DNA of 50,148 bases. It comes from Nitrospira japonica. GTDB taxonomy: Bacteria; Nitrospirota; Thermodesulfovibrionia; Thermodesulfovibrionales; DYHX01. Both the position numbers and the translations under genes were made by a program. A model generated the notes under the pieces. That model saw only the letters and a program-made list of their open reading frames with translations, was not told the DNA's origin and did not search any database. The stretch is taken from contig DYHX01000004.1 of NCBI GenBank assembly GCA_020723925.1, positions 1-50,148 of the forward strand, in the 5' to 3' direction. Shown piece after piece: positions 8,932 through 36,849 of the stretch; the stretch's first letter is position 1; every line of letters begins with the position of its first letter.

Positions 8932-9963
8932 TTATAGTACCCATCCTCTGTACACCTCGTGTCTTGTTACAAATACACTGCATGGCGAAAACCTCACAAC
9001 ATTCTCCGCTACAGAACCGAGGTCCATCCCCTCAACAAAATGCCTCCCTGTCTTGCCAGCAAAGATAAGGTCAGCACTGACCTTTGATGCGTAGTCACAC
9101 ATCTCCCTGAATGGAAGCCCCTCAAAAACCTTTTTCGTATACCCGTTATTGCCATCCAGCACCTCTTGTGCAGCCCTCGCGATTATCATATCTCCTACCT
9201 TCATAAGTCCCTTATCTATGAATAAATCGTGTATCTTCTGCTGCTCCTTTGAATTAAATGAAAACCTCCCACCACTGTTTATCACAGAGTCTTTCAACTT
9301 GCTAAAGACATCTTTGTGTAGTTTAGAATCGAAAACATATATGAGGTGAAGCTCTGCAGAGTATTTTTCTGCTAAGATTGCGGCCATCCCCAATGCCCTC
9401 AGAGATGATGGGCTTCCGTCAAGGCCAACAATAAATTTCCCCCCTTTGAAATTTAGAGGCCCTTTTACAATGAGCATGTCCATATCAAGGTGATGCAATG
9501 TCCTCAAGCAGACGCTGCCGATAAAACCAGGTGCATTTTCACTAAAACCCCACGCACCCATGACCATGAGGTCTCCCCCTTCTTCATGTGCGAGTTCCAT
9601 AAGGCTTCTGAAATTCTTTCCCTCTTTCACCATTGCCTTGAAATTTATATTCGCCGCCCTGAATGTCTCCTCGAGAGGGCTCAGATAGGATAAAGAAATC
9701 TTTTCCATCCCGACATTGATCAGGGTATTATGCACTTCCCTTTGCTTTTGCAGGATTTCTTCCTTTTGATACCGCGATGGGAGCGTGGGTTCCATTATAT
9801 GGAATGCCCCATCATGCATGGAGGCATTGTATGCATGAAGGCCAACAACTTCTGAGCCGAGGGTTCTGGCAAGTTTCAATGTTGCCTCTGATGCAACCAT
9901 CGAAATATCGCTGTTGTCAAAGGCGAGGAGTATCTTGTTTATCTTAATCTCTCTCTTGCTCAT
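8932..9963 (-). CDS. Tandem-domain universal stress protein
   Basis: This 343-aa protein has two UspA folds. The first starts KINKILLAFDNSDIS and ends at MDMLIVKGP; the second starts GGKFIVGLDGSPSS and ends SADLIFAGKTGRH, then SPCSVFVTRH. The nucleotide-binding signature G-x2-G-x9-G-S/T is partly kept in each half (GAWGFSENAPGFIGS and GKTGRHFVEGMDLGS). It is cytoplasmic. It lies between a NosL lipoprotein gene and the radical-SAM gene, so it probably links stress or ATP state to this respiratory cluster. Confidence 0.88.
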   Translation of the reverse strand: MSKREIKINKILLAFDNSDISMVASEATLKLARTLGSEVVGLHAYNASMHDGAFHIMEPTLPSRYQKEEILQKQREVHNTLINVGMEKISLSYLSPLEETFRAANINFKAMVKEGKNFRSLMELAHEEGGDLMVMGAWGFSENAPGFIGSVCLRTLHHLDMDMLIVKGPLNFKGGKFIVGLDGSPSSLRALGMAAILAEKYSAELHLIYVFDSKLHKDVFSKLKDSVINSGGRFSFNSKEQQKIHDLFIDKGLMKVGDMIIARAAQEVLDGNNGYTKKVFEGLPFREMCDYASKVSADLIFAGKTGRHFVEGMDLGSVAENVVRFSPCSVFVTRHEVYRGWVL

Positions 9964-10483: not shown

Positions 10484-11914
10484 TTATTTTTTCCTCTTCA
10501 GCCTTCTATGCAATACCATGCCAAGACCAAAAACTGCAAATGAGACTACAGGGGGGAGGATATATACCTTCAATGGGGTTGGCGGCTCCAGCATGATGTA
10601 ATACCATGCTGACACTACCCCTTTGTTTTTCTCCTCATTGTTCTGCCCATCATAGAGGGTGACTGAAAATGGAACGAATCTGCCAACTTCAAAGACAATA
10701 TCGTCCTTATCCTTCGTATCTATAGACCTTTTAAATATAACCCTGTATAATCCATCGTTATATGTTGCAGTAATCTTCACATCCTGTTTTTCTTGCTGTG
10801 TTATCAGCTCCTCTATTGGCCCCTTAGCATTGAGTTCAACACCGAGATTATCTGATGCTTTCCACTGCCAGATATTAACAGCCCTTTTCCCATCTCCCAT
10901 AAAAAAATAAGGCTTTTCACTACCTGTAAGGATTTTAGAAGGAAACTGTATGTGCGCTGCGTCTGGAGACAAACCATCATCACCCTTGTTAGGCCTTTTA
11001 TCGGTCCACTCAAGCATCATTGCAACCTCAGAGCCTGAATAGATTCCCCTTACCCTTACATTCGTTATCGTGGGTGTAAAATGGCGTGGCTCAAATATTA
11101 TCTGCCCGGCCATCGGCATATCGATATAATCACCCTTTTCCCATGCTCTATCATCCGTCGAAGAAGGAATAGCATCCACCCTCTTTATCCGTAATGCTAT
11201 GCCGAGTCTCCTTTTCAGTTGTAGAGATTTTATAAACTGTGCCAGTGCCCACCTATCATCATCAGAAAGGGAGTCCTGATATGAGGTCATAGGTGTACCG
11301 CTCAGCCCAACAGTTATTGTCCTGTATATATCCTCAACGGTTGAGCCATTCCTCAATTCCCAAGTATGTGTATAATTAGCAGGGTATATTCTCTGACCCC
11401 AGTCATCCTTAAATTTAGCTTCCCAACCTTTCTCGCCGTTACCCCTGCCTGCTTCGCCATGACATTCAAAACATTTTGCAACCTTAAACAGTTCCTTTCC
11501 TTTTTTTATGATTGCATCACTCGCAGAAGGTGCCTTTCCAATCTTTATTGGTCCTGGCTTAACGGCAAAGACATCAGGGGAAAATTTCTTTATGTAGTCA
11601 ACGATTGCCACGACCTCACCATCGCTGAATCTCTCCCATGCAGGCATAGATGTCCCTGGATTTCCCTTTCTTATGGACTGTATCAAATCCTTGTCAGCAG
11701 GAGGGTCGCCTGTTGGTGTTGAGCGAAATTTATAGACACCGAATGCAAGATCCCTCGGTCTTGGAAATGTAAAGTCACTGGAGTAGGCATCAGCATCACC
11801 TTTATATCCATGACACTGGGCGCACCACTCTTCATAAAGCTTCTTCCCTTTATCTTCAGAAAATGCATTAACGGGCAATAATAACAATAAAACAAGGGTT
11901 ATGAGAATCCTCAT
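10484..11914 (-). CDS. Dihaem cytochrome c with ethylbenzene-dehydrogenase-like haem domain
   Basis: I start at the internal ATG at 11914 because AAGGAGG lies just upstream and a signal peptide (ITLVLLLLLPVNAFSE) follows. The 476-aa product has two cytochrome c domains, CAQCH (31-35) and CFECH (148-152). About 200 residues follow that resemble the EB_dh/DOMON haem-b fold found in gamma subunits of Nar/Ebd/Nxr-type enzymes (AWEKGDYIDMPMAGQ, VAMMLEWTDKRPN, HIQFPS). The C-terminal helix (YILPPVVSFAVFGLGMVLH) anchors it with the domains outside. It is likely an electron-transfer subunit between quinol- or molybdo-type enzymes and soluble carriers. The redox partner is not in the window. Confidence 0.85.
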   Translation of the reverse strand: MRILITLVLLLLLPVNAFSEDKGKKLYEEWCAQCHGYKGDADAYSSDFTFPRPRDLAFGVYKFRSTPTGDPPADKDLIQSIRKGNPGTSMPAWERFSDGEVVAIVDYIKKFSPDVFAVKPGPIKIGKAPSASDAIIKKGKELFKVAKCFECHGEAGRGNGEKGWEAKFKDDWGQRIYPANYTHTWELRNGSTVEDIYRTITVGLSGTPMTSYQDSLSDDDRWALAQFIKSLQLKRRLGIALRIKRVDAIPSSTDDRAWEKGDYIDMPMAGQIIFEPRHFTPTITNVRVRGIYSGSEVAMMLEWTDKRPNKGDDGLSPDAAHIQFPSKILTGSEKPYFFMGDGKRAVNIWQWKASDNLGVELNAKGPIEELITQQEKQDVKITATYNDGLYRVIFKRSIDTKDKDDIVFEVGRFVPFSVTLYDGQNNEEKNKGVVSAWYYIMLEPPTPLKVYILPPVVSFAVFGLGMVLHRRLKRKK

Positions 11915-11927
11915 TGCAAAATCCTCC

Positions 11928-12443
11928 TTACCATGTCCTCGGCTTATTTCCTGAGGCATTATAAATAAACAGGCTGGCCTTCCATATCTCATCTTCTGTC
12001 AGAAAGTCCTCAAATGCAGGCATTGACGAATCCCATGGGTTTGAACCTGTTGGAAGACCTCTCCACCCCTTTGCTATACGCCAGAACACAAAGGACTCAG
12101 GTAACTGCGCAATCGTATCGGTACCTCTGAATGGCAGCGGAAGCGGATTAAATGCCTGCGCAAAATGTCCTTTGCCATCAAGGTCATCTCCGTGGCAGTA
12201 AAAACAGCTTTGATAATATATCTTCTTGCCATCCTCTATGTGTTTCAAAAGGTTTGCAGCATCCTTTCTTAAAGGATTTTCAAGTCCTAATATCCTGATA
12301 GTTTTGCCCCTGAAATCTATCTCTGTTGGGGGCTCAGGATGCACAATCCTTGCTGATACTGGAGGTTCAAAGGCTGGCCTTACCCTTGCATATGTAATAA
12401 GACCTGCCAGCAGGGGAACGAGGATGAACACTATAGTCCTCAT
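11928..12443 (-). CDS. Monohaem c-type cytochrome
   Basis: The start at 12443 gives an N-terminal anchor or signal (RTIVFILVPLLAGLITYA) directly after the Met. One haem site, CFYCH (80-84), has the distal region SSMPAFEDFLTEDEIW, where the Met can be the sixth ligand. It is 13 bases upstream of the dihaem cytochrome gene and is the first intact gene of the array. The transposase element begins about 50 bases upstream, so the native promoter or an upstream gene may be lost. It probably delivers electrons within the same periplasmic chain. Confidence 0.85.
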   Translation of the reverse strand: MRTIVFILVPLLAGLITYARVRPAFEPPVSARIVHPEPPTEIDFRGKTIRILGLENPLRKDAANLLKHIEDGKKIYYQSCFYCHGDDLDGKGHFAQAFNPLPLPFRGTDTIAQLPESFVFWRIAKGWRGLPTGSNPWDSSMPAFEDFLTEDEIWKASLFIYNASGNKPRTW

Positions 12444-22941: not shown

Positions 22942-23877
22942 TTATCTCCTTGCAATATCGCTTAAACTGCTCAACTGTCCCACATAAACAAAGGCAACCC
23001 TTATGGCAAGGTTTCCCAAAAGTATTAATACAGCAATTAGATGAACCCTGAGTGGTGCAGGTCTCCTCGCTGTTATTACGGGTAATTCTAAGGCAATAGG
23101 GAAGATGATGCCCGCAAACAATACAGCAGTAAAAAATGGAATAAGCGCCTCTCTATGTGGTGCGGTAGATGTGAGATGGCTGTAATAAAAGAGAAGCACA
23201 AGAACGATCTCTGCGGTGGTAAGCCAAATATTCAGCTTTGTGAAATAGAGTTTTTCCTGATAGTTTCTCGCAATAAGGATTATCATGGCAGACCCGCTCA
23301 CGAGACCAGAGTTAAGAAAGAATAATGGAAGCACTGCACTATTCCATAAAGGTCGTGCAACATAGCCGCTCAGAAGCACGCCTGTATAAATGCCAAGAAA
23401 GATTCCGAGTGCAAGGTTTACTCCTGCTAACTTGTTCCTGTAGGCTGATATCTTGAATGAAAAATCATGGAGTTTGGGCCACCTGAGATAGTGTCTGTGC
23501 TCTTCAGGGATTGATGCAAGGGCCCAGAGCGTACTGAGTGGAATTATCAGTCCAACACCCCATGCACCCCATGACATGGGAGACATGATATTGAAATTCA
23601 GATAGAACCAGAAGGCATTGAGTTTCCTTGACAGGTCAAGGAAAATAAAGAACATACCTATGGAGAGGAGTATCGGTGACAAAACAGGGGCCAAATAGCA
23701 TACAAATGGCCTTCCTGCATCTGTTGTCGAACTCGGACGGAACTGTGATATGGCTCCAAGCACCATAAGTCCAGCTACCATACCGCCGAGGAAGAGATAA
23801 ATGGATATGGCCCAGTTCCATATTTCAAGATGGGGATAGGTTATGGCATTTGCCCCTGTTATAGCAATCTCTTTCAT
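22942..23877 (-). CDS. NrfD/PsrC-type membrane quinone-interacting subunit
   Basis: This 311-aa protein has about eight to nine transmembrane helices and the NrfD start WNWAISIYLFLGGMVAGLMVL. Other family features are the loop after the fourth helix (NIMSPMSWGAWGVGL) and the later NSGLVSGSAMIIL. NrfD subunits exchange electrons and protons with menaquinone and pass electrons to the FeS subunit. It is third in the operon after the molybdoenzyme and ferredoxin genes, the usual CISM three-subunit layout (Psr, Phs, Ttr and related). Confidence 0.9.
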   Translation of the reverse strand: MKEIAITGANAITYPHLEIWNWAISIYLFLGGMVAGLMVLGAISQFRPSSTTDAGRPFVCYLAPVLSPILLSIGMFFIFLDLSRKLNAFWFYLNFNIMSPMSWGAWGVGLIIPLSTLWALASIPEEHRHYLRWPKLHDFSFKISAYRNKLAGVNLALGIFLGIYTGVLLSGYVARPLWNSAVLPLFFLNSGLVSGSAMIILIARNYQEKLYFTKLNIWLTTAEIVLVLLFYYSHLTSTAPHREALIPFFTAVLFAGIIFPIALELPVITARRPAPLRVHLIAVLILLGNLAIRVAFVYVGQLSSLSDIARR

Positions 23878-23886
23878 ATATGCCTC

Positions 23887-24441
23887 CTATGTTAATGGCT
23901 GCAGGGAGAGATAATATACAGATGGCTTTGTCCCTGCCTCAGCTATTAATATTCTTAGATGTTTTTCCGCACATATTTTACTTACGATGCTCTGAGGGTC
24001 GTCGAGGTCTCCAAATATCCTTGCCCTTGATAAACATGTTGTAACACAGGCAGGCTCTTTACCCTCTTTTATCCTGTGCTCACAGAAAGTGCACTTGTGG
24101 GCAGCACCGTTTCTCGGGTCTATAAACCTTGCATCATAGGGACATGCTGCTATGCATGCCTTGCATCCGACACATCTTTTCTTGTTCACCAGAACTATGC
24201 CGTCTTCTTTTTTGTATGATGCACCTGTCGGGCAGTTATAGACGCAGGGCGCATTTTTGCAGTGGTTGCATAGCTCTGGCCTGAGTTCCATGCGAACCTT
24301 CGGGAACGTGCCTTCAACTATCTCAACAACCCTTGTTCTGTAATGTTCCTCAGGGACATTGTTTTCCCTTTTGCAGGCAACGACGCATGCCATGCATCCG
24401 ATACATCTCCTCTGGTCAATTACCATTGCGTATCTTGGCAT
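23887..24441 (-). CDS. Four-cluster ferredoxin subunit (DmsB/NrfC/PsrB type)
   Basis: Four Cys groups for [4Fe-4S] clusters are visible: CIGCMACVVACKREN, CNHCKNAPCVYNCP, CVGCKACIAACPYD and CTFCEHRIKEGKEPACVTTC. This is the pattern of DmsB/PsrB electron-transfer subunits. No Tat signal is present, so it is probably exported with the catalytic subunit by the hitchhiker route. It is separated by one base from the molybdoenzyme stop and by 9 bases from nrfD, so the three are one operon. Confidence 0.93.
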   Translation of the reverse strand: MPRYAMVIDQRRCIGCMACVVACKRENNVPEEHYRTRVVEIVEGTFPKVRMELRPELCNHCKNAPCVYNCPTGASYKKEDGIVLVNKKRCVGCKACIAACPYDARFIDPRNGAAHKCTFCEHRIKEGKEPACVTTCLSRARIFGDLDDPQSIVSKICAEKHLRILIAEAGTKPSVYYLSLQPLT

Positions 24442-26628
24442 CTATGCCTCCTTGATTATCTTTACAAAGTTAACCCTCATACCAGTTCCACCCATGAGAG
24501 GGTCAATTGCGTATCTTGTGATAAGGGACTGGTCGTCAGCACCTTTTTTGTAAGCCTTTTTCGTCTCTTTCGAATTGTGACCAAAGCCATGAACCATATA
24601 CACACAGTCTTCCCTTATCCTCTCTGTGGCCTTGAGTTTTATTCTGTTAGACCTTGCACCATCCTGATTGATAAGAACAACATATTCGCCATTTTTAAAA
24701 CCGAGGGCTTTTGCCCTCTTTGCATTTATCCAGAGCTCGTTCTCTTTATATAATTCCCATAGCCATTGATTGTTCACAGTTCTCGAAAAGGTGTGTAGAG
24801 GGCTCCTTCCATATAGAAGTCTGAAGTAACCTTCTGGCGGCATCTCAGGTCGTTTGTATTTCGGCACAGGGTCAAAACCCTGTTCTTTAAGGGCTTTTGA
24901 ATAGAGTTCTATCTTTCCCGAATCTGTATCAAACTCAGGTTCATTACCTGATGTGATGAATGGGTTTGCAGTGTCAGGGAATGTTATTGTGCCTTTTTCT
25001 TTAAGCTCTTCAAACCTTATACTTTTGGCATCGAGCCTTGCCTTAAGGTATTCTTCTATATCTTTATAGGGGAAATATGCCTCAAGTCCGAGCTTGATTC
25101 CCAGCTCTCTCACCATCCACCATGAAGGTTTGCTTTCATACATCGGTTGAACAACAGGCTGTCTTATGGTAACGCTCAGCACCTTACCTTTGCCCACCTT
25201 CAGGTCATCATATCTTTCGAGGTATGTACACTCTGGTAGGATTACATCTGCCCAATCAATATGCGCGTATGGTAAGACATCCACAACCACCATGAGGTCG
25301 AGGTTTTTTATAGCCTCAATGGTCTCCTTTTGGTTTGGAAGGGTCTTAAGTATATGACAATCATAGGCAATCCATCCCTTAACAGGGTAAGGCTTACCTG
25401 TTATAGTTGTCTTTCTCAGAGATGTTGTCGTTGCCTCTACTGCGTATGGCCAATCACCACTGAGTTTGAGTCTCTGGGGCTCTGGTGGAGACGGCAGATT
25501 GGGATATTCTGGTATGCCTGCCACCTTGGTAGGGAAATAATAACCACCCTCTCTTCCCCATGAACCCATGAGTGCTGTGAGTATAGCCATTGCCCTTGAC
25601 CGCTGTGTGTCATCTCCATACCATGCAGTATGCCTTCCGGGGTGCACTACAACACTCGGTTTGTATCTCGACATCTCCCTCACGGTCTCAACTATAATAT
25701 CTGCTGGGATTTCTGTCTCTTTTGATGCCCATTCTGGTGTGTATGTTTTTACCTCTTCTTTGAGTTCCTTAAGCCCAATGGCATATTTGTTTATGTACTC
25801 TTTGTCATAAAGTTTCTCTTGAACGATTATGTTTATCCATGCAAGGAGTAATGCTATATCTGTACCGGGTTTAATAGGCAGCCACCATGTAGCCTTTCCA
25901 GCAGCGGTCGAGAACCTCGGGTCAACAACAACCAATTTTGCACCCCTTGCAATGCCTTCAACAAAATCCTGCACCTGACTGTTGTGAGCGTTTTCTCCGA
26001 GGTGGGCGCCTATGAGGACTATAAATTTGCTGTTAGCAAGGTCTATCTGTTCAGGAGAGCCAGGGCCAGCGCCAAATGTGAGCGTGTATCCTATATCCCT
26101 CGGTCCGCGGCATTGCGCAAAAGACGGTGCTGTAGAATTTTGGCTACCATATGCCTTTAAGAGGTATTTCCAGAAGCTTCCACCTGTGCCGTGTGATATC
26201 AGGGCAACTGCCTCTGGGCCGTAAGTCGCTTTTATCTTCGTCATTTTCTCAGCAATAAAGCCGAGGGCCTCATCCCAGCTTACTTTCTTCCATTTTGGTT
26301 CTCCCCTTTTGCCTACATTCAACATCGGATGCTTCAGTCTGTCAGGGTCATAGAGAGAACCCATTCCTGCATTACCTCTTGCACAGAGCTTCCCTCTACT
26401 TGATGGGTCTGTGGGGTTGCCCTCAAGCTTCACTACTTTTCCATTTTCTACCCTCGCTATTTCACCACAATTCCAGAAACATATCTCACAGAATGTTGGA
26501 ATGTTAGATGCAACCGTTTCTGGTTTTTTGCCCATTGCCATGACGGACTTGAATATCGGAACACTTATAGCTGTGCCGCCAGCAGCAACAGTTGCGAGCT
26601 TCAAAAAATCCCGGCGACTTAAACTCAT
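24442..26628 (-). CDS. Psr/Phs-type molybdopterin oxidoreductase, catalytic subunit
   Basis: A Tat signal (SRRDFLKLATVAAGGTA) leads a 728-aa DMSO-reductase-family enzyme. The [4Fe-4S] site is Cys47, Cys50, Cys54 and Cys82, and the likely molybdenum ligand is Cys173 in PSFAQCRGPRD. The cofactor-binding domains follow (VVVDPRFSTAAGKATWWLPIKPGTD, then the C-terminal HGFGHNSK region). A Cys ligand with an FeS and an NrfD subunit fits polysulfide, thiosulfate or similar sulfur/metalloid oxyanion reductases, but the substrate cannot be read from the sequence. The RBS is AAGGAGGAGAAGG. It may be matured by the TorD-like protein at 709-1254. Confidence 0.9.
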   Translation of the reverse strand: MSLSRRDFLKLATVAAGGTAISVPIFKSVMAMGKKPETVASNIPTFCEICFWNCGEIARVENGKVVKLEGNPTDPSSRGKLCARGNAGMGSLYDPDRLKHPMLNVGKRGEPKWKKVSWDEALGFIAEKMTKIKATYGPEAVALISHGTGGSFWKYLLKAYGSQNSTAPSFAQCRGPRDIGYTLTFGAGPGSPEQIDLANSKFIVLIGAHLGENAHNSQVQDFVEGIARGAKLVVVDPRFSTAAGKATWWLPIKPGTDIALLLAWINIIVQEKLYDKEYINKYAIGLKELKEEVKTYTPEWASKETEIPADIIVETVREMSRYKPSVVVHPGRHTAWYGDDTQRSRAMAILTALMGSWGREGGYYFPTKVAGIPEYPNLPSPPEPQRLKLSGDWPYAVEATTTSLRKTTITGKPYPVKGWIAYDCHILKTLPNQKETIEAIKNLDLMVVVDVLPYAHIDWADVILPECTYLERYDDLKVGKGKVLSVTIRQPVVQPMYESKPSWWMVRELGIKLGLEAYFPYKDIEEYLKARLDAKSIRFEELKEKGTITFPDTANPFITSGNEPEFDTDSGKIELYSKALKEQGFDPVPKYKRPEMPPEGYFRLLYGRSPLHTFSRTVNNQWLWELYKENELWINAKRAKALGFKNGEYVVLINQDGARSNRIKLKATERIREDCVYMVHGFGHNSKETKKAYKKGADDQSLITRYAIDPLMGGTGMRVNFVKIIKEA

Positions 26629-27826: not shown

Positions 27827-29161
27827 ATGAGGAAAAGGCTAAGTCCACCACAGATTCTGGTTCTTGGATTCCTTTCTTTTATACTTGTAGGGACTGCACT
27901 CCTTATGCTTCCCGTTGCAACAACAAAGGGCATTTCAGCAGTCGATGCCATTTTTACTGCTACCTCGGCTGTCTGTGTTACCGGGCTGATAGTGAAGGAT
28001 ATACCGAATGACTTTACACTCTTCGGTCAGATAGTGATATTGCTCCTGATACAGTTTGGTGGTCTTGGCTATATGACATCAGCCACAATAATCTCTCTGC
28101 TCATAGGTAAGAAGATAGGACTCGGGGAGAGATTGATAATGAGGGAAGCATTGAATGTTATAAGCATAGAAGGAATTGTTAAGTTTACGAAGGGGGTTTT
28201 AAAATTTACATTACTTTTTGAACTCATAGGAACGATTATTCTAACCTTCAGGTTTATGCGGGACTATGATCTGAGGGATGCATTTTTCTATGGACTCTTC
28301 CATTCAGTCTCTGCGTTCAACAACGCGGGGTTCAGCCTCTTCTCTGACAACCTCATAAAGTACAGGGGTGACATAACAGTGAACCTTGTTATAACCACAT
28401 TGATAATAATTGGCGGCATAGGCTTCATCGTCATAAGCGACCTGTACAGATTCCAGAGGAAAGAGGTTACGAAGCTGTCGCAGCACACAAAGATAGTGCT
28501 TACCACAACAGCTATCCTGATAGTGCTGGCTTCAGTTCTTATATTCATATTTGAGACCTCGAACCCGCACACATTCGACCAGTTGTCGTTCAAGGAGAAG
28601 CTTCTTGTATCTTATTTCTCTGCAGTAACTCCAAGGACAGCAGGCTTCAACACAGTGGATTATTCGTCGTTAAGGATAGAGACACTCTTCCTCGCTATAA
28701 TCCTTATGTTCATTGGCGCATCTCCCGGTGGTACCGGTGGAGGTGTAAAGACATCGACCTTTGCAATAGTCCTTATGAGCCTGTGGTCAACCATACGAGG
28801 TATGCGTGACACAATACTCTTCAAAAGGAGAATACCGGCTGATACCGTATCAAAATCCTTCTTGCTTATAACGCTTGCATTGCTTTTCATTATTTTTATC
28901 ACCCTGTATATAATCAGGACAGAGGATACAAAGTATCTCTCCACAATGTTTGAGGTTACATCTGCATTTGGTACGGTGGGATTATCTGTGGGAGACGGGG
29001 GTGTGAGGAGTCTTTCAGCGATTTTCACGCCAATGGGCAAGTTATTAATAAGTTTCACTATGTTTGTAGGCAGGCTTGGTCCCCTCACACTTGCGTTTGC
29101 TGTTGTCAGGCGCAAGGAGGAGAGGTTCAGATACCCAGAAGGGAGGGTTGTTATAGGATGA
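27827..29161 (+). CDS. ktrB: KtrB/TrkH-type potassium transporter subunit
   Basis: This 444-aa membrane protein has four repeated M1-P-M2 units. Selectivity-filter segments include TATSAVCVTGL, SVSAFNNAGFS, AVTPRTAGFNT and the last around SAFGTVGLS. The gate loop GASPGGTGGGVKTSTFAIV is typical of KtrB. It forms the ion channel and works with the cytoplasmic RCK subunit encoded next, overlapping by 4 bases. There is no clear Shine-Dalgarno sequence; TATAAA ends 10 bases before the ATG, so the leader may be very short. Confidence 0.93.
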   Translation: MRKRLSPPQILVLGFLSFILVGTALLMLPVATTKGISAVDAIFTATSAVCVTGLIVKDIPNDFTLFGQIVILLLIQFGGLGYMTSATIISLLIGKKIGLGERLIMREALNVISIEGIVKFTKGVLKFTLLFELIGTIILTFRFMRDYDLRDAFFYGLFHSVSAFNNAGFSLFSDNLIKYRGDITVNLVITTLIIIGGIGFIVISDLYRFQRKEVTKLSQHTKIVLTTTAILIVLASVLIFIFETSNPHTFDQLSFKEKLLVSYFSAVTPRTAGFNTVDYSSLRIETLFLAIILMFIGASPGGTGGGVKTSTFAIVLMSLWSTIRGMRDTILFKRRIPADTVSKSFLLITLALLFIIFITLYIIRTEDTKYLSTMFEVTSAFGTVGLSVGDGGVRSLSAIFTPMGKLLISFTMFVGRLGPLTLAFAVVRRKEERFRYPEGRVVIG

Positions 29162-29835
29162 AGAATCAGTATGCTGTTATAGGACTCGGCAGGTTTGGGT
29201 TTTCTGTCGCAGAAACCCTATCAGAGTGTGACTGCGAGGTTATCGCAATCGACAGGGAAGAAGAAAAGGTTAAATCGGTGGCTGACTTTGTTACCCATGC
29301 TGTGCAGCTCGATGCCATGGATGAGAGGGCGCTGCGCTCTGTCGGTGTTCAGAATGTGGATGTTGCAGTGGTCAGTATTGGCGAGAATATAGAGGCAAGT
29401 ATACTTGTTGTCATGACACTGAAGGAGATGGGAATTAAATATGTGGTGGCGAAAGCTGTTACGCGGCTTCATGGTAAAGTGCTCGAGAACCTGGGCGTTA
29501 ACAAAGTGGTCTATCCAGAGCGAGATATGGCTGTGAGGGTTGCTCACAGCCTCATAAGGCCGAATATCCTTGAGCAGCTCGAGCTCTCACAGGAATACAG
29601 TATTATTGAACTGCCAGCTCCAAAGGGCTTTGTCGGCAAAACCCTGAAGGAGAGCCAACTCAGGAGCAAATATGGTGTTAATCTTATAGCCATAAAGAGG
29701 AGGGTCAGCAAAGAGGGGGAGATGGGGGAGACATGGAATGTCAATCCAATGGCAACGGATACGATTCAGGAAGGGGACGTACTTGTCCTGATCGGCTCGA
29801 ATGAAGACCTCGACAGGTTGGGGATTGAGAGGTAG
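29158..29835 (+). CDS. ktrA: KtrA/TrkA-type RCK regulatory subunit
   Basis: This 225-aa cytoplasmic protein starts with an NAD/ATP-binding Rossmann domain (YAVIGLGRFGFSVAETL, IDREEEKVK) and ends with a TrkA_C domain (from about residue 135, IELPAPKGFVGKTLKES). A single copy of each domain is typical of KtrA rather than the duplicated TrkA. It gates the KtrB channel in response to nucleotide. Its ATG overlaps the ktrB stop. Confidence 0.93.
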   Translation: MKNQYAVIGLGRFGFSVAETLSECDCEVIAIDREEEKVKSVADFVTHAVQLDAMDERALRSVGVQNVDVAVVSIGENIEASILVVMTLKEMGIKYVVAKAVTRLHGKVLENLGVNKVVYPERDMAVRVAHSLIRPNILEQLELSQEYSIIELPAPKGFVGKTLKESQLRSKYGVNLIAIKRRVSKEGEMGETWNVNPMATDTIQEGDVLVLIGSNEDLDRLGIER

Positions 29836-30234
29836 GGTAGAAAGGCTTGGTGCAAATCTGAGGCTGCACCACGATTATCCGAGGTTGCAGTTGATTTTCC
29901 CTTATTTTAATACCGTTACCTATTGTTTTGAGCCCCGCATGCAAACTTGGTGTTGCATTTTGTACTAACTACGTTTTAATCTGTTTTGGGAGAGAAAACT
30001 AAAAAATCCTTTTAAATACAATGTATTATAAGGAGAGGGGCTTCGATGGCATGCCCTTTGCTAAAGTAGAATAGACATGTTAAATCTCGTTGTTAACCGC
30101 ACGTCCTGCTATGCATTCCTGGTTAACCCGCCATTTCTTTAGATAGTCAACTGTAATAGCAACTTATGTGTAAGTGGAAGTGTAAGTACGAAGTTTTCGC
30201 TTGCACATACACTTTATAAAGATAAAGACCTAAG
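29836..30234. other. Gene-free AT-rich spacer after ktrA
   Basis: I find no credible ORF of more than about 10 codons with a ribosome binding site, and no recognisable RNA gene, in these 399 bases. Together with the MITE-like element that follows, it makes the longest gene-free stretch of the window (about 600 bases). It may hold the promoter of the uspA-UPF0324 locus, but no convincing promoter was found. Confidence 0.5.
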
Positions 30235-30434: not shown

Positions 30435-30851
30435 ATGAAGATATTGGTAGCCCATGATGGCTCAGAACAGGCAGATTTGGCTTTAAAGAGGGCAGCAGAT
30501 CTGGCATCGAAGACGAATGCTTCCCTTGTTGTGCTTTCTGTTGTACCCGACCTCTGCATGACAGAACTCAGCGATGACGAGTGCAGGAGCCTCTATAACG
30601 CCATGACTGAAGAGGCTAAGAGACACATGGCAAGGGTTAAGGAGGACCTTACAAAGAGCGGTCTTGAGGTAATGACTGAGGTGAAGTTTGGGAGTCCTGC
30701 CGAAGCGATTATTGATGTTGCCCAAAATGAAAAGGTCGATATGATTGTTGTAGGCTCTCATGGCCGCCACGGTGCAAAAAAATTCCTCCTTGGCAGTGTA
30801 TCTTCCAAGGTAGTTGACCACGCGCCATGCGAGGTACTTATCGTGAAATAA
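30435..30851 (+). CDS. Single-domain universal stress protein
   Basis: The start at ATG 30435 follows AAAGGAGAG at good spacing, whereas the upstream ORF start has no RBS. The 138-aa protein is a complete UspA fold, with MKILVAHDGSEQADLAL at the N-terminus and the ATP-binding signature GSHGRHGAKKFLLGSVSSKV followed by APCEVLIVK. ATP-binding Usps often sense energy state and regulate partners. It is first in a locus with two membrane microproteins, a UPF0324 protein, a second UspA and a rhodanese. Confidence 0.92.
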   Translation: MKILVAHDGSEQADLALKRAADLASKTNASLVVLSVVPDLCMTELSDDECRSLYNAMTEEAKRHMARVKEDLTKSGLEVMTEVKFGSPAEAIIDVAQNEKVDMIVVGSHGRHGAKKFLLGSVSSKVVDHAPCEVLIVK

Positions 30852-30916
30852 ACGGGTAACAAAGATGGGGAATTTTATTAAAGCTAAAGTCAAAACATCA
30901 GGAGGTGAGGAGATAT

Positions 30917-30985
30917 ATGAAACAGGTTTTGATACTTGCAGGAATATTCCTCGTATTGGCAGTGGTAATAAGCTTTGTCCTGTAA
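30917..30985 (+). CDS. 22-aa single-helix membrane microprotein
   Basis: The ORF encodes MKQVLILAGIFLVLAVVISF plus two residues, a single hydrophobic helix with a basic start. A strong RBS (AGGAGGTGAGGAG) lies just upstream at proper spacing, which is the main evidence that it is translated. It is below the length cutoff of the ORF track. It lies 32 bases before the UPF0324 gene in the same direction, so it is probably a small accessory subunit of that membrane protein. Confidence 0.7.
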   Translation: MKQVLILAGIFLVLAVVISFVL

Positions 30986-31017
30986 CTAAAACTAAAATAA
31001 AGTAAAGGAGGTAAGAC

Positions 31018-32610
31018 ATGAATGGAGTAAAAAGGTCGCCTGCAGCGCTGATTATAGGACTTATCCTGCTCATTTACGCCTTGATTCTTAAGCGTCAGGA
31101 TGCAGCAGTAACCCCCGGGTTACTGATAGACTTAGCGACTTATCTTAAGACAACCAAAACAGTAAGCACTCAAGTTGGTGTGGGATTATGGGCAGGGATA
31201 ATAGTTACATTCTTTGGTTTGTGGAACCTTGCTGTGCCTGCTATGAAGTCAAAATTTGACAAGCTGGTGCGTGGCCCTATGGCTGGTATCGGTACCATTA
31301 TTCTCCTTTCCTTTCTCACCCGGTATTACCTGGAGCCGATATTCAAGATCTGGGGTAAGAACGCAGAGAAGACGCTTGGTTTTGACTTTGCAGCGATGTT
31401 TGGTCTGAATTATATCCTGCTCGGTATTGTTATTGGTATTATCTGGGTTAATACCATTGGGGTTCCGGGTTGGATGCAGGCCGGGGTTAAGACTGCACGA
31501 TTATCCATGAAGATGGGGGTTATCACCCTTGGTGCCATGTACAGCCTGACAGAGCTGAGGTATATGGGCTCGCTAAGTATCATAATGGTTGCGGTCTTTG
31601 TTATGGGCACTGTGATATTTGTCCTCTGGCTCGGCCAGATAATGAAGACTCCAAAACCACTCACCGGCGTGCTTTCTGCTGGCCTGGGAGTATGCGGCGT
31701 ATCTGCAGCAGTGGCAGCATCGCCTGTAGTGAAGGCCCGTGGCATTGATATGGCTTACTCCATAGGCATGCTGCTTTTAGTTGGTGTGGTAGGGCTATTC
31801 ACATTTCCAACCATAGGCAGATTGGTGGGCATGAATGAGCTTCAGTTTGGCGCGTGGGCAGGCACAGGCATATTGAATTCTGCACAGGTTGCAGCAGCAG
31901 CCCTGATTTTTGACCCAAAGACCATAGAGACATTGAAGGTTGCTGAAATCTTCAATATCACTCGAATACTGTTCCTTCCGTTCATCGTTATCTTGCTTGC
32001 AGTCTGGTTTGCAAGGGGGGAGGAAGAAGCAGAGGTAGGCAAGGTTAGCATACGCAAGGTTCTTATAGATAAGTTTCCACTCTTTGTTCTCGGGTTCATC
32101 CTCATGTTTGCCTTCAGCACAACAGGAGTATTCACACCAAGAAACTATGAACTGCATGGAAAACACTTTTACAACTTTAAACCCGACGAGAAAAAGGAGT
32201 TGAGGACAAGGGACCTGAAGAAGATTCAGGCATTTATTGAATCAGGGCAGGTCACGAATCCTGAGGTTAAGTCAGCACTCGAAAAGCTTGTAGCTGACAG
32301 GCAGATTACAAGCACTGCACAGACAGACCTCGTTCTCAAGGCGTCTGATTTTACCGAGGATAAAGACCTCAAGAAGATTTTCAAAGATGCTGACAAAAAG
32401 GTTCAGGCAACTCCAAAGACAGTAAAGACCATGAGGGAATATATGATGTGGTTCTTTGCATTCGGACTTATTGGTCTCGGGATGCAGATTACATGGCAGA
32501 CCATTCGCCAGGCAGGTGGAAAGGCGGCTGTAATAGGGGTAATTGCAGGGGTTACAAAGGCGGTTCTGTCATTCTTTGTATGCTGGTTACTTATTAAGGG
32601 AACCATTTAA
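31018..32610 (+). CDS. Enlarged UPF0324 (YeiH-like) membrane transporter
   Basis: Two segments identify the UPF0324/YeiH family of putative sulfate exporters: AGLGVCGVSAAVAASPVVKA (221-240) and QFGAWAGTGILNSAQVAAAAL (277-297). The protein has about 12 hydrophobic segments. At 530 aa it is much longer than the usual 330-350. The extra length comes from an N-terminal membrane region (about 1-110) and a charged insert (about 373-470, rich in Lys/Asp) between the last helices. RBS AAGGAGG precedes the ATG. Microprotein genes flank it on both sides. A sulfur-anion substrate is inferred from family and the rhodanese neighbour. Confidence 0.82.
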   Translation: MNGVKRSPAALIIGLILLIYALILKRQDAAVTPGLLIDLATYLKTTKTVSTQVGVGLWAGIIVTFFGLWNLAVPAMKSKFDKLVRGPMAGIGTIILLSFLTRYYLEPIFKIWGKNAEKTLGFDFAAMFGLNYILLGIVIGIIWVNTIGVPGWMQAGVKTARLSMKMGVITLGAMYSLTELRYMGSLSIIMVAVFVMGTVIFVLWLGQIMKTPKPLTGVLSAGLGVCGVSAAVAASPVVKARGIDMAYSIGMLLLVGVVGLFTFPTIGRLVGMNELQFGAWAGTGILNSAQVAAAALIFDPKTIETLKVAEIFNITRILFLPFIVILLAVWFARGEEEAEVGKVSIRKVLIDKFPLFVLGFILMFAFSTTGVFTPRNYELHGKHFYNFKPDEKKELRTRDLKKIQAFIESGQVTNPEVKSALEKLVADRQITSTAQTDLVLKASDFTEDKDLKKIFKDADKKVQATPKTVKTMREYMMWFFAFGLIGLGMQITWQTIRQAGGKAAVIGVIAGVTKAVLSFFVCWLLIKGTI

Positions 32611-32625
32611 CAGGAGGTGCTTAAG

Positions 32626-32772
32626 ATGGCTGAAGAGAAAGCAACAGCAGCAGAACAAAAAGAGATGGAGGAGCGTGCACTCAGTGTCTTTGCTTCAGAA
32701 AGAAGGGAAGACCTGACAGCGCTGATAATCGCCTTTACACTGGCGATATTAGTGATTATCACATTGAAGTAA
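32626..32772 (+). CDS. 48-aa single-helix membrane microprotein
   Basis: This ORF is shorter than the track cutoff. It encodes a soluble charged N-terminus (MAEEKATAAEQKEMEERALS) and a C-terminal membrane helix (LTALIIAFTLAILVIITLK), so it is tail-anchored. The RBS CAGGAGG is 9 bases from the ATG. It lies 15 bases after the UPF0324 gene and 5 bases before the next uspA, where no separate RBS is visible, so the pair is likely translationally coupled. It may tether the UspA protein to the transporter. Confidence 0.75.
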   Translation: MAEEKATAAEQKEMEERALSVFASERREDLTALIIAFTLAILVIITLK

Positions 32773-32777
32773 ACAAC

Positions 32778-33302
32778 ATGTTTAAAAGAATACTGGTAGC
32801 TACTCATGGGACAGAGGGTGCTAAGAAGGCTGAGATATATGGTATTGGGCTGGCAAGAGCATTAGGCGCAGAGTTGCATGGTCTTTATGTAATACATAGA
32901 GACTGGAGCTCACTTGTTGGCATTGAATGGCTTCATTCTTCCCATGCGAGGATGGAGTTTTACAGATATGCAGAATCTGAGTTTAACCTCAGGGCAAAAG
33001 AGGTCTTAGAAGCCTTTAAACAACATGCAAATGGGATGGAAGTGAGTACAGCCATCAAAGTGGGAGAACCAGCAGAGGTTATAGCAGAGGAAGCAAAGGA
33101 CAGCCATGTGGATATTATTGTTATTGGAGCCAGTAGCACCGGGAGGTCAGAGGAATACAAGGCTCGGATCTCCTTGAAAAAACTCATAAAACTTGCACCA
33201 TGTCCTGTTTTGGTGGCAAATAATGCTTCAACGATTATGCGGGAAGGGGGTGAGGTAGAACTTAGTAGGACAAAGGTTTTGGAGACAGTGAACAGTGAAT
33301 AG
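32778..33302 (+). CDS. UspA-family protein
   Basis: The 174-aa product is a single UspA domain (MFKRILVATHGTEGAKKAEIYG) with an enlarged central region. The C-terminal binding segment reads VIGASSTGRSEEYKARISLKKLIKLAPCPVLV. The usual ATP signature G-x2-G-x9-G-S/T is altered here, so ATP binding is doubtful. The last residues (TVNSE) come from a heptad repeat. The position directly after the tail-anchored microprotein suggests a role at the membrane with the UPF0324 protein. Confidence 0.85.
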   Translation: MFKRILVATHGTEGAKKAEIYGIGLARALGAELHGLYVIHRDWSSLVGIEWLHSSHARMEFYRYAESEFNLRAKEVLEAFKQHANGMEVSTAIKVGEPAEVIAEEAKDSHVDIIVIGASSTGRSEEYKARISLKKLIKLAPCPVLVANNASTIMREGGEVELSRTKVLETVNSE

Positions 33303-33352
33303 TGAACAAATATACTTGTCTTTAACTATTCACTAACGACCATTCACTATTT
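33286..33352. repeat. Inverted pair of 7-bp-period repeats
   Basis: GTGAACA GTGAATA GTGAACA is followed, after about 20 bases, by ACTATTC ACTAACG ACCATTC ACTATTT, the opposite orientation. The left block supplies the uspA stop codon, and the right block ends just before the rhodanese RBS. The pair could fold into a hairpin between the two genes. Confidence 0.7.
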
Positions 33353-33366
33353 AAAAGGAGGAGAAG

Positions 33367-33867
33367 ATGTTTAAGAAACTGGCAATAGCTTTGCTGTGCT
33401 TCGCATTTGCAGTTGTGGGTTTTTATAACCTTGCATCTGCCGCTGAATGGCCTGATGCCCTCTTAAAGGAATTAGAGGTGCTTAAGGCTGCTGGAAACGA
33501 CAAAAAGGACATGCCTGCTTCTATCCCCGGGATTAAGGAGATAAAAGGCGATGAGCTTAAGAAGTGGATGGATGAGAAGAAGAAGTTCGTACTAATGGAC
33601 AACAGGCTCAAGGCTGACTACGACAAGGAGCATATTGTAGGTGCTGTATTGCTTACTGTGGATGAGCTTATTAAGGATCCCAAGCTGGCTGACAAGTATA
33701 AAAAGGATGATATACTTGTTCAATATTGTAACGGTGTAAAATGCTGGAGATCGCCAGGAGCAATACTGCTCCTTAAACACCTTGGATTTAAGAATATCTA
33801 TTGGTATAGAGACGGTATTCCTGACTGGATAAAGAAGGACTACCCCACAGTAGAGGGCAAGAAGTAA
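33367..33867 (+). CDS. Exported rhodanese-like sulfurtransferase
   Basis: A signal peptide (1-26, ending LASAAE) precedes a rhodanese domain. The active-site loop is VQYCNGVKCWRSPGA with Cys121 as the expected persulfide carrier and a second Cys126, a variant common in periplasmic single-domain rhodaneses. The C-terminal helix region reads GFKNIYWYRDGIPDW. It has its own strong RBS (AAAAGGAGGAG). It is last in the UspA/UPF0324 locus and is the main reason to link that locus to sulfur compounds. Confidence 0.9.
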   Translation: MFKKLAIALLCFAFAVVGFYNLASAAEWPDALLKELEVLKAAGNDKKDMPASIPGIKEIKGDELKKWMDEKKKFVLMDNRLKADYDKEHIVGAVLLTVDELIKDPKLADKYKKDDILVQYCNGVKCWRSPGAILLLKHLGFKNIYWYRDGIPDWIKKDYPTVEGKK

Positions 33868-34019: not shown

Positions 34020-34132
34020 TGATTTGAAAAATATGGTGACAGCAATGAAAGAAGAAAAATTATTGTGCGTAGAAACAGCGCCGTGGTATGTCCAATAAAT
34101 AAAAAGAAAGCGCAAATAAAGGGGTGAAAAAT

Positions 34133-36217
34133 ATGACAATAAAGAACAAGTTGACATTGAATGTTGTTACTGTCCTTGTAATCATTGGTGCTGTTGTTGC
34201 CACAAGCATTATAGGGATGGGATTTGTTAAAGACAAATTGTTTTATCTCACAGAACGGAGCACCCCCTTCCAGATAAGGACTGTTGAGTTTCAGAGGGCA
34301 ATACAGGGGACTACAGCAGATCTCGTTAAGGTAAGTGCTTCAAGGAATATGGAGGAATATAAGGCATATCGCACTGAGGCTGAAAGGTCTCTATCAGAGG
34401 TTAAAAATACACAGGATACATTGGAGTCTCTATCAGGAGGTGCGAAGATGGAGACTCACAGTGAATTAAACCGCATAGCAAAAGAGCTTTTTGAGATAAC
34501 AGAGGGAAGACTGCATGCTGAAGAAGATGCTGGGGCAGCAAATAAAGGAATTACCATGAAGTTAAAGGAGGCATCTGACAGATTAAATCTTCTGGACACA
34601 AAGATAGAGAGTCTGAAAATGAATCGTGTTGCCGCCTTTGAGACATTGCTGTCAGAGGCGAAAGGTATAGATACTATTAGGCAAAGCAGTCTCATGGCTG
34701 ATGCAGACATTGCCACCACAACTTTGATTCGCAGTTCCCAATTTATTTCAATGGCCCTGTCTGTTAATGTATTAACAACAAGGCTTTTCACATTGGATTC
34801 TATAAAAGAGGTGGGCAATGTGGAATCAGAAATCAAAAAGATGTTTGAGAAAATAGACCTACGCATAAAGTCCCTGGGAAAGTCCCTCAAAAAATTAGAT
34901 GCAAAGGACGAGATTAAAATACTTTCTGATGTAGAAGGTTCTCTTCAGACAATGAAGGGATTACTGCTTGCAAAGGACGGCATAATCGCAAAGATCCGCC
35001 ATCAGATTAACATGAAGGAAAAGGCATTACAGGCAACTGGAAGATTGAGAGAGATTGTTTTGAAGCAGGCAGCAAAGGGTAAGGAAACCGTAACGACTGC
35101 CCAGGGCGAGCAGGAGAAGGCTATTGGAACTGTAAACAAAATGGTCAGGTTCAGCACAATACTTATAGCAGCAATAAGCATAGGAGCAGTTATTTTTGGG
35201 ATTGCCTTTGGCATATGGGTTTACAGGTCAATAGCAAGGCCTTTAAACCAGCTCGTGAGAGTCTCCGATGAAGTTGCCAATGGAGACCTTACATGTGCGA
35301 TAAGTACACATACAGGAGATGAAGTTGGCATAGTTCAGTCATCAATGGCAAAAATGGTAACGAACCTGAGAGAAATAGTCGGAAAGATAAGGACATCTAC
35401 AGGAAGCCTTGCAAGCAGTTCAGAGGAATTATCTGCCACTGCCACTTCACTGGATAAAGGTTCACATGAACAAACCATGCAGACTGAACAATCAGCAACA
35501 GCAATGACAGAGATGTCACAGACAACCATAGATGTGGCAAAAAATGCATCTGACACAGCAGATGCTGCACAGAGAATGAAAAAGATAGCATTGCAGGGCA
35601 AAGAGGCGATGGATATTACTGCAAGGGAATTAATTAAGTTTGCAGATATGGTTAAGGAGTCTGCTGAAAAGGTAGAATCCCTTGGCCACAAGTCCACAGA
35701 GATAAACAATATTATAATCCTGATAAAAGAAATTGCAGACCAGACCAATCTTCTTGCCTTAAATGCTGCTATTGAAGCAGCAAGGGCAGGTGAACAGGGA
35801 AGGGGCTTTGCAGTTGTAGCTGATAATGTCAGGCAGTTAGCAGAAAGGACAACAGTTGCCACAGATGATATTGCAAACACTGTAAGGACAATGCAGACAG
35901 AGGTTTCAGAATCTGTGAATTTTATGAAAGAGGAGAGGAATTCTATTGGAAGGGTGCTTGACCATGTAAAGAACACCTTAAAATCAATAGACGAAATAGC
36001 CACATATGTAGAGCAGGTTGCTGACATGGTGCAGAGGATTGCAGCAGCCACAGAGGAACAGTCTTCAACCTCTGAAGAGGTCTCACACAATATGGAGAAT
36101 ATTGCTGCTATAACAAGACAATTAAGCAGCTCTATCGGCGAAATAAAGCGTGCATCAGAAGACCTTTCAAGACTCGCTGCTGAATTAAATTCAATGGCGG
36201 GGTGGTTTAAGGTGTGA
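34133..36217 (+). CDS. Methyl-accepting chemotaxis protein
   Basis: I start at ATG 34133 because AGGGG lies 8 bases upstream; the track uses a GTG three codons earlier. The topology is helix 1 (about 6-30), a long helical periplasmic sensor (about 35-340), helix 2 (about 343-365), a HAMP domain and a signalling coiled coil. The hairpin tip is EIADQTNLLALNAAIEAARAGEQGRGFAVVAD, which binds CheA/CheW. The sensor contains no haem or PAS motif, so the ligand is unknown; its length suggests a helical-bimodular type. No che genes are nearby. Confidence 0.93.
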   Translation: MTIKNKLTLNVVTVLVIIGAVVATSIIGMGFVKDKLFYLTERSTPFQIRTVEFQRAIQGTTADLVKVSASRNMEEYKAYRTEAERSLSEVKNTQDTLESLSGGAKMETHSELNRIAKELFEITEGRLHAEEDAGAANKGITMKLKEASDRLNLLDTKIESLKMNRVAAFETLLSEAKGIDTIRQSSLMADADIATTTLIRSSQFISMALSVNVLTTRLFTLDSIKEVGNVESEIKKMFEKIDLRIKSLGKSLKKLDAKDEIKILSDVEGSLQTMKGLLLAKDGIIAKIRHQINMKEKALQATGRLREIVLKQAAKGKETVTTAQGEQEKAIGTVNKMVRFSTILIAAISIGAVIFGIAFGIWVYRSIARPLNQLVRVSDEVANGDLTCAISTHTGDEVGIVQSSMAKMVTNLREIVGKIRTSTGSLASSSEELSATATSLDKGSHEQTMQTEQSATAMTEMSQTTIDVAKNASDTADAAQRMKKIALQGKEAMDITARELIKFADMVKESAEKVESLGHKSTEINNIIILIKEIADQTNLLALNAAIEAARAGEQGRGFAVVADNVRQLAERTTVATDDIANTVRTMQTEVSESVNFMKEERNSIGRVLDHVKNTLKSIDEIATYVEQVADMVQRIAAATEEQSSTSEEVSHNMENIAAITRQLSSSIGEIKRASEDLSRLAAELNSMAGWFKV

Positions 36218-36237: not shown

Positions 36238-36849
36238 ATGCAATATATATCAGAAAGAATCAATCTCCCTGTCTCAGATGAGTTAGCATTTAAAGTCTTA
36301 TCAGACCTGAATGTAATACTAAGGCTTTCTCCTTACTGGAGTCTGAAGGAACTCAAGTGTCTTTCAGAGGAGCTGGCAGAGGGATGGGTAAGGGATGGTA
36401 GCAGATACGAAGCAACAATTGAATATTACGGAAAAGAGGTAGTGGAGACACATGACATAGAAGTGTCAGAGTTTTTAAAAAATACAAAGATTTCGTTTAA
36501 AGTTGAAAACGGGATATTAAAAGAAATAGTCTTTGTCATTAAACAGGAAGGTGAGGGGATTCAATTAACGCAGCAGTTCTTGCTTGAGTGCGAGGATGAG
36601 GCTATCTTAAAGGGAACCCAGAGCGAGCTCCATTTCTGGCTAAGAAGCATAGGGGAATATTTAAAACTTGCTAAGGGCAAGACTTTATGGAAGAAATTCT
36701 TAAAATGGTTTATGGATAGGGTGTGGTTAAAAATGACTCTCTCCGAAAGAAAGATTGCCATCATTATTGTCAAGATTTCCATTCTGGAACTTATTCTATT
36801 GCTTTTATTGGTTTTAATATGGAACCTTGGACTGAGGTTGAACTTTTAA
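36238..36849 (+). CDS. SRPBCC-like protein with C-terminal membrane anchor
   Basis: The N-terminal 150 residues look like a polyketide-cyclase/SRPBCC ligand-binding fold (ERINLPVSDELAFKVLSDLN, later LTQQFLLECEDEAILKGTQSELHFWLRSIGEYLK). A C-terminal helix (IVKISILELILLLLLVLIWNL) anchors it to the membrane. It starts 20 bases after the chemoreceptor gene and is probably co-transcribed. A link to chemoreceptor signalling is possible but not shown by sequence. Confidence 0.65.
   Translation: MQYISERINLPVSDELAFKVLSDLNVILRLSPYWSLKELKCLSEELAEGWVRDGSRYEATIEYYGKEVVETHDIEVSEFLKNTKISFKVENGILKEIVFVIKQEGEGIQLTQQFLLECEDEAILKGTQSELHFWLRSIGEYLKLAKGKTLWKKFLKWFMDRVWLKMTLSERKIAIIIVKISILELILLLLLVLIWNLGLRLNF

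Follow-up and report, generated by a model that had tools for sequence, protein, structure and literature searches.

Genes of the long YeiH locus

We analyzed a stretch of 50,148 nt (hereafter the window; positions 1 to 50,148 of contig DYHX01000004.1, assembly GCA_020723925.1, Nitrospira japonica), which belongs to a Nitrospirota-type genome of 1.87 Mb in 106 contigs. At 30435-33867, six genes lie on the + strand in the order universal stress protein 1 (Usp1), microprotein 1, a long transporter of the YeiH/UPF0324 (PSE) family, microprotein 2, Usp2, and a rhodanese, with intergenic gaps of 65, 32, 15, 5, and 64 bp. The initial annotation of this DNA had described such a run of closely spaced genes on one strand, and the coordinates, the Pfam matches, and the AGGAGG sites upstream of both microproteins agree with it; it had overlooked a seventh gene at 36238-36849 (+ strand), which encodes a membrane-anchored SRPBCC protein. 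Comparison with related loci showed that long YeiH, microprotein 2, Usp2, and the SRPBCC protein are conserved as a unit, and that microprotein 1, Usp1, and the rhodanese are confined to particular lineages.

The YeiH gene (31018-32610) encodes a protein of 530 amino acids (aa) that belongs to the YeiH/PSE family by its match to PF03601 (E-value 3e-49; 168.1 bits against a gathering score of 24.5). It scores 80.9 bits against TIGR00698, whose curated cut-off is 232.6, and thus falls outside the YeiH subfamily as defined by that model. The protein also exceeds the TIGR00698 model of 335 positions by ~195 residues, so that the earlier description of an over-long UPF0324 protein is correct. It carries an N-terminal extension of approximately residues 1-87 (31018-31278; alignment A1), with two helices at residues 9-29 and 46-72 of the structure model, and an insert of ~95 residues (residues 369-466; 32122-32415) placed between the last two helix pairs. 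Judged from the loop charge distribution, the insert and the C terminus would both lie on the periplasmic side, which for the C terminus agrees with a published prediction (PMC12880088). The AlphaFold2 model of the protein has a predicted local distance difference test score (pLDDT) of 80 and a predicted template modeling score of 0.74. A Foldseek search with this model gave no significant match (E-value only 0.06), and a sequence search of the PDB returned chance-level matches only. After realignment of the model, NapA (Z 14.1, root-mean-square deviation (rmsd) 4.2, 266 residues) and SbtA-SbtB (Z 14.1, rmsd 4.1, 252 residues; ~10% identity) were among the top rows together with NHA2, CitS, and AspT. 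All top rows are elevator-type carriers, a fold class to which the model assigns YeiH, if not conclusively.

Microprotein 2 (32626-32772) has 48 aa and a single helix, with the motif LSxFxSxRxED on its N-terminal side; in relatives the microprotein partner is ~40-70 residues long. Searches of Pfam and NCBIfam with 32 family members, each taken singly, and of the PDB with the family profile gave chance-level matches only. Having no Pfam or NCBIfam entry, the family has probably been overlooked by annotation in many genomes. Microprotein 1 (30917-30985) is a single hydrophobic helix of 22 aa, MKQVLILAGIFLVLAVVISFVL.

Both Usps exceed the PF00582 cut-off of 24 bits, Usp1 (30435-30851) with 131 bits (E-value 5e-38) and Usp2 (32778-33302) with 73.5 bits (E-value 3e-20). 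The translated Usp1 keeps the ATP motif G-2x-G-9x-G(S/T) as GSHG-RHGAKKFLL-GS, but the motif is missing from Usp2 in 82/82 cases. The energy-sensing Usp pair of the initial annotation is therefore not supported; degenerate Usps can nonetheless bind ATP (PMC3673472). The rhodanese (33367-33867; PF00581, 53.8 bits against 22.2, E-value 3e-14) is a single-domain protein with a cysteine in its active loop (CNGVKCW) and an N terminus that reads like a signal peptide, as expected of an exported protein.

The SRPBCC protein is a core member of the module, displaced in the window by a chemoreceptor gene. Its AlphaFold2 model (pLDDT 94) has the helix-grip fold of the SRPBCC/START class, matching PYL2 (Z 16.1, rmsd 2.5, 138 residues) and also aromatase/cyclases (Z 16); the best Pfam link of the family is PF10604, in 5/39 members. 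The model terminates in helices, and its C-terminal stretch has the hydrophobic character of a membrane anchor, in keeping with a tail-anchored protein. Its gene is parted from Usp2 by the rhodanese gene and by that of the chemoreceptor (HAMP and MCP signaling domains; 34124-36217), which is wedged between the rhodanese and SRPBCC genes. The chemoreceptor insertion was not seen among the related loci inspected, and the order Usp2-rhodanese-SRPBCC is unbroken in L048, L050, and L054.

Conservation of the module among relatives

Over its full length, the window YeiH shares 44-78% identity with its relatives. A search of Nitrospirota genomes yielded 12 further full-length relatives with 52-78% identity. 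As related loci we took the best 80 of 373 YeiH relatives (one genome per species; 43-78% identity), whose hosts are Nitrospirota, Gamma-, Beta-, and Alphaproteobacteria, Magnetococcales, and Desulfobulbaceae. The patterns used to find these loci came from aligned YeiHs with a linked microprotein, so that the loci are not a random YeiH sample; within them, a microprotein 2 homologue adjoins YeiH in 80/80, and among loci with enough sequence a Usp lies downstream in 68/71 and an SRPBCC homologue in 61/65. A reverse search of 395 Nitrospirota genomes with the microprotein 2 profile, which is independent of how the 80 loci were chosen, gave 25 matches at E <1e-4, one per genome, and coordinate comparison placed 25/25 of them within ~600 bp of a YeiH gene. 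Three further matches (E 0.005-0.009) look like chance. Microprotein 2 was present in every one of these genomes with a full-length long YeiH. We concluded that the gene association is established.

The upstream genes are distributed otherwise. Usp1 precedes YeiH in Thermodesulfovibrionales-type relatives and not in most others. Microprotein 1 homologues were found upstream of YeiH in L008, L034, and L039/L056 (four Nitrospirota lineages in all), and none at L004-L007 and L033. The co-occurrence of microproteins and Usps with long YeiH, which the initial annotation had proposed to examine, thus holds for the downstream pair only, and its picture of a transporter flanked on both sides by a microprotein and a Usp is not supported; nor is the rhodanese as a core part, which occurs in 8/80 loci. 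Neither microprotein is a chance reading frame. Microprotein 2 is under purifying selection, with a pooled ratio of nonsynonymous (pN) to synonymous (pS) differences of 0.21, 0.16, and 0.22 in three groups; for microprotein 1, pS is 0.66 and pN 0.24, and the changes fall mostly at codon positions 3 and 1, with very few at position 2.

The relatives comprise a YeiH class of 520-540 aa and a class of 416-445 aa that lacks the insert. Microprotein 2 directly follows YeiH in the long class, and stands before or after it in the shorter one: ahead of YeiH in L010-L014, L043, and L044, and, as a 41-aa microprotein accompanied by a Usp, after YeiH in L040-L042 (L040:1234-2484), where YeiH has an N-terminal zinc-ribbon-like stretch (CxRC...CxxC). 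In L009, a 369-aa YeiH is followed by a 132-aa protein (877-1275, - strand) in which a microprotein 2-like helix is joined to a biotinyl/lipoyl-like domain.

No microproteins or Usps were found around the other long UPF0324 proteins, L016-L026 and L028-L031 (~25-32% identity). The initial annotation had named UPF0324 proteins above 480 aa without such neighbors as a finding that would speak against it; such relatives do exist, but they form a separate clade. In a FastTree phylogeny of 128 sequences, YeiHs with microprotein 2 are not intermixed with those without it, and the main microprotein-less clade has a support of 1.0; the tree does not resolve its deep nodes or where L015 belongs. A second YeiH, which belongs to the other long clade without microproteins, follows the SRPBCC gene in L049, and L048 and L054 have a similar layout. 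In L020 (2622-3128), L021 (2496-3002), and L022 (2487-3023), the gene immediately downstream of a long YeiH from the clade without microproteins encodes an exported rhodanese, with a broken reading frame in the latter two; the rhodanese link is therefore wider than the microprotein link.

Sulfur metabolism and the proposed function

Sulfite, a toxic compound, is a product or a substrate of DsrAB. To our knowledge, its movement across the membrane of DsrAB cells is poorly understood, and a conserved transporter with an always-present, undescribed small neighbor provides named genes for this question. We found dsrA above cut-off in 40/50 genomes holding a long YeiH, and fragments of it in several others. 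Among Nitrospirota, dsrA is present in 12/13 genomes with long YeiH vs. 179/395 overall (Fisher p 5e-4), and in 19/20 when the 430-445 aa class is added (p 2e-6). The corresponding figures in the family of Candidatus Desulfobacillus (G413) are 10/12 vs. 37/150 (p 1.3e-5), and 18/20 with the shorter YeiH class added (p 3e-11). Co-occurrence with dsrA is thus established in two unrelated groups; judged from taxonomy, the carriers of the module look like sulfur oxidizers and disproportionators.

Members of the YeiH/PSE family (TC 2.A.98) have been studied in other bacteria. Deletion of Salmonella yeiH, the main driver of sulfite resistance, caused ~20-fold greater sulfite sensitivity, and its promoter is induced by sulfite, not by sulfate (PMC12880088). 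Hyphomicrobium yeiH is up 526-fold on thiosulfate and has been proposed to encode a sulfite exporter, and for Paracoccus SuyZ, sulfate export had been suggested before (PMC11582611, PMC12423496). The window YeiH has the Pfam family, the core region, and a sulfur-linked context in common with Salmonella YeiH, Hyphomicrobium Hden_0834, and SuyZ, but differs from them in the length and TIGR00698 score given above and in the near-invariant microprotein, Usp, and SRPBCC neighbors. The papers on those three proteins, whose gene neighborhoods we know by description only, report an adjacent LysR gene and do not mention such partners.

The layout is not wholly new, since D. vulgaris DVU0542-DVU0545 has been described with a matching order: Usp, PSE transporter, a 133-aa single-helix protein, and Usp, beside an NtrC-type two-component system (PMC10102598). 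By the published description, the window and L009 have this order. The comparison is one of layout: DVU0544 has 133 aa vs. ~48 in the window, and an SRPBCC protein is unmentioned for the D. vulgaris cluster. DVU0542-DVU0545 has molybdate-specific fitness effects, and its role was called unclear by the authors (PMC10102598); in a reporter assay, the operon promoter is switched on by the regulator of the cluster, whose targets also include lactate genes (PMC3333781). The literature searched contained no description of the universal microprotein, of the SRPBCC partner, or of the dsrA link.

With middling confidence, we favor the reading that the locus encodes a module for the transport of sulfur oxyanions. 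It would most likely export sulfite (possibly sulfite/sulfate) and would combine the carrier with an accessory subunit of one helix and with Usp and SRPBCC regulators. The sulfite experiments on YeiH, the dsrA co-occurrence, and the near-invariant presence of microprotein 2 and Usp2 uphold the regulated, probably multi-part sulfur-anion transporter of the initial annotation, and the separate tree groups of YeiH genes with and without microprotein 2 support the proposed module. We infer its substrate, export direction, physical complex, and regulatory roles as follows. YeiH, as an elevator-type anion carrier, would export sulfite by elevator movement; microprotein 2, with one helix and a charged N-terminal arm in the cytoplasm, would be an accessory subunit of the carrier; and Usp2 and the tail-anchored SRPBCC protein would regulate it from the cytoplasmic face. 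Where present, Usp1 would add adenine-nucleotide sensing and may report ATP, and in some lineages the exported rhodanese would act on periplasmic sulfane sulfur. The module would serve cells in which sulfite arises or is encountered by way of DsrAB, for the most part sulfur oxidizers and disproportionators. More tentatively, and with rather less confidence, we propose that microprotein 2 could be the founding member of a protein family whose single helix is an obligate subunit of sulfur-oxyanion carriers, and that YeiH-microprotein-Usp-SRPBCC could be an unrecognized system by which sulfite leaves cells that oxidize or disproportionate sulfur with DsrAB.

Known systems offer partial parallels to this scheme. 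SbtA-SbtB likewise pairs a carrier of the same fold class with a cytoplasmic nucleotide-sensing protein that gates it, but the SbtA-SbtB regulator is PII-like, not a Usp, and the system carries bicarbonate. KdpF and similar transporter subunits are very short, consist of a single helix, and are encoded beside their partner; KdpF shows no sequence relation to microprotein 2, one member of which gives KdpF at an E-value of only 0.7. The Usp TeaD regulates the ectoine transporter TeaABC (Schweikhard et al., 2010, as cited in PMC3673472); TeaABC is unrelated to YeiH, and TeaD was solved with ATP bound, whereas Usp2 is without the ATP motif.

Several points weigh against sulfite export by this module. 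The window YeiH lies far under the TIGR00698 cut-off, so that its substrate may differ from that of short YeiH, and no transport assay of any long YeiH was found in the literature. The fold match stands at Z 14, a level where helical bundles can be ambiguous, and the Fisher tests on dsrA ignore the relatedness of the genomes. In Desulfobacterota, dsrA was found in 54/108 genomes (a sample) and microprotein 2 in 2/247; DsrAB alone is therefore no predictor of the module, and a role of microprotein 2 in sulfate reduction at large is rejected. Disruption of DVU0543 improved the growth of D. vulgaris in molybdate, a sulfate analogue (PMC10102598), i.e., the apparently equivalent cluster is detrimental under this condition, which would also fit an importer. 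Such a carrier would take sulfite, thiosulfate, or another sulfate-like oxyanion into the cytoplasm as a supply for DsrAB or enzymes related to it, and the Usp and SRPBCC proteins would restrain this uptake; the fold class of YeiH includes the importers CitS and SbtA, and the dsrA association fits supply as well as disposal. We nevertheless regard import as unlikely: experiments on YeiH proteins indicate a role in resisting or excreting sulfite, and microprotein 2 is missing from most Desulfobacterota with dsrA, many of which presumably reduce sulfate.

The sulfite phenotypes of YeiH, its thiosulfate induction, and the link to dsrA in each of two unrelated groups make it quite unlikely that the carrier moves a non-sulfur anion such as a carboxylate and that the dsrA link reflects a shared lifestyle only, even though carriers of citrate, bicarbonate, and aspartate have the same fold, the regulator tied to the D. 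vulgaris cluster has lactate genes among its targets as well (PMC3333781), and the 416-aa class (L040-L042) has the microprotein in three genomes that are not among the dsrA holders. A slightly smaller chance still is given to the microproteins having no part in the carrier, microprotein 1 being a leader peptide or translation-coupling reading frame and microprotein 2 a free membrane stress peptide sharing the operon. Microprotein 1, with only 22 codons just upstream of YeiH and missing from many relatives, would suit such a role; microprotein 2, in contrast, always adjoins YeiH, was detected only beside YeiH genes, and is under strong amino-acid constraint.

Neighboring genes and additional observations

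Upstream of the six-gene locus lie TrkH-TrkA (27827-29835) and, on the opposite strand, a set of genes (22942-26628) that reads as a molybdopterin oxidoreductase operon. A near-perfect sigma-54-like -24/-12 site (score 13.5 of 14.2) was detected at 30047-30061, 388 bp before Usp1, and strong sites of this type also precede Usp1 in L005, L007, L048, and L054. The scan threshold yields 5 background hits per kb, and a sigma-54 promoter was therefore not used as evidence.

Loci of Desulfobulbaceae and of some Betaproteobacteria add genes for a protein kinase and a metallophosphoesterase, and have an NtrC regulator and a histidine kinase upstream. In L062 (8150-10877), L082 (8102-10212), and similar Desulfobulbaceae loci, the kinase and metallophosphoesterase genes follow the SRPBCC gene; the protein kinase of L082 bears a C-terminal Usp domain, and the upstream histidine kinase of the Desulfobulbaceae loci has a Tll0287 domain. 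The kinase, phosphoesterase, and histidine kinase/NtrC genes of these loci possibly form a phospho-signaling layer. Elsewhere in the window, a 343-aa protein (8932-9963) apparently consists of a tandem pair of Usp domains, and next to it lie a gene possibly for a cytochrome c (10484-11992) and one that resembles radical-SAM genes (7643-8920).

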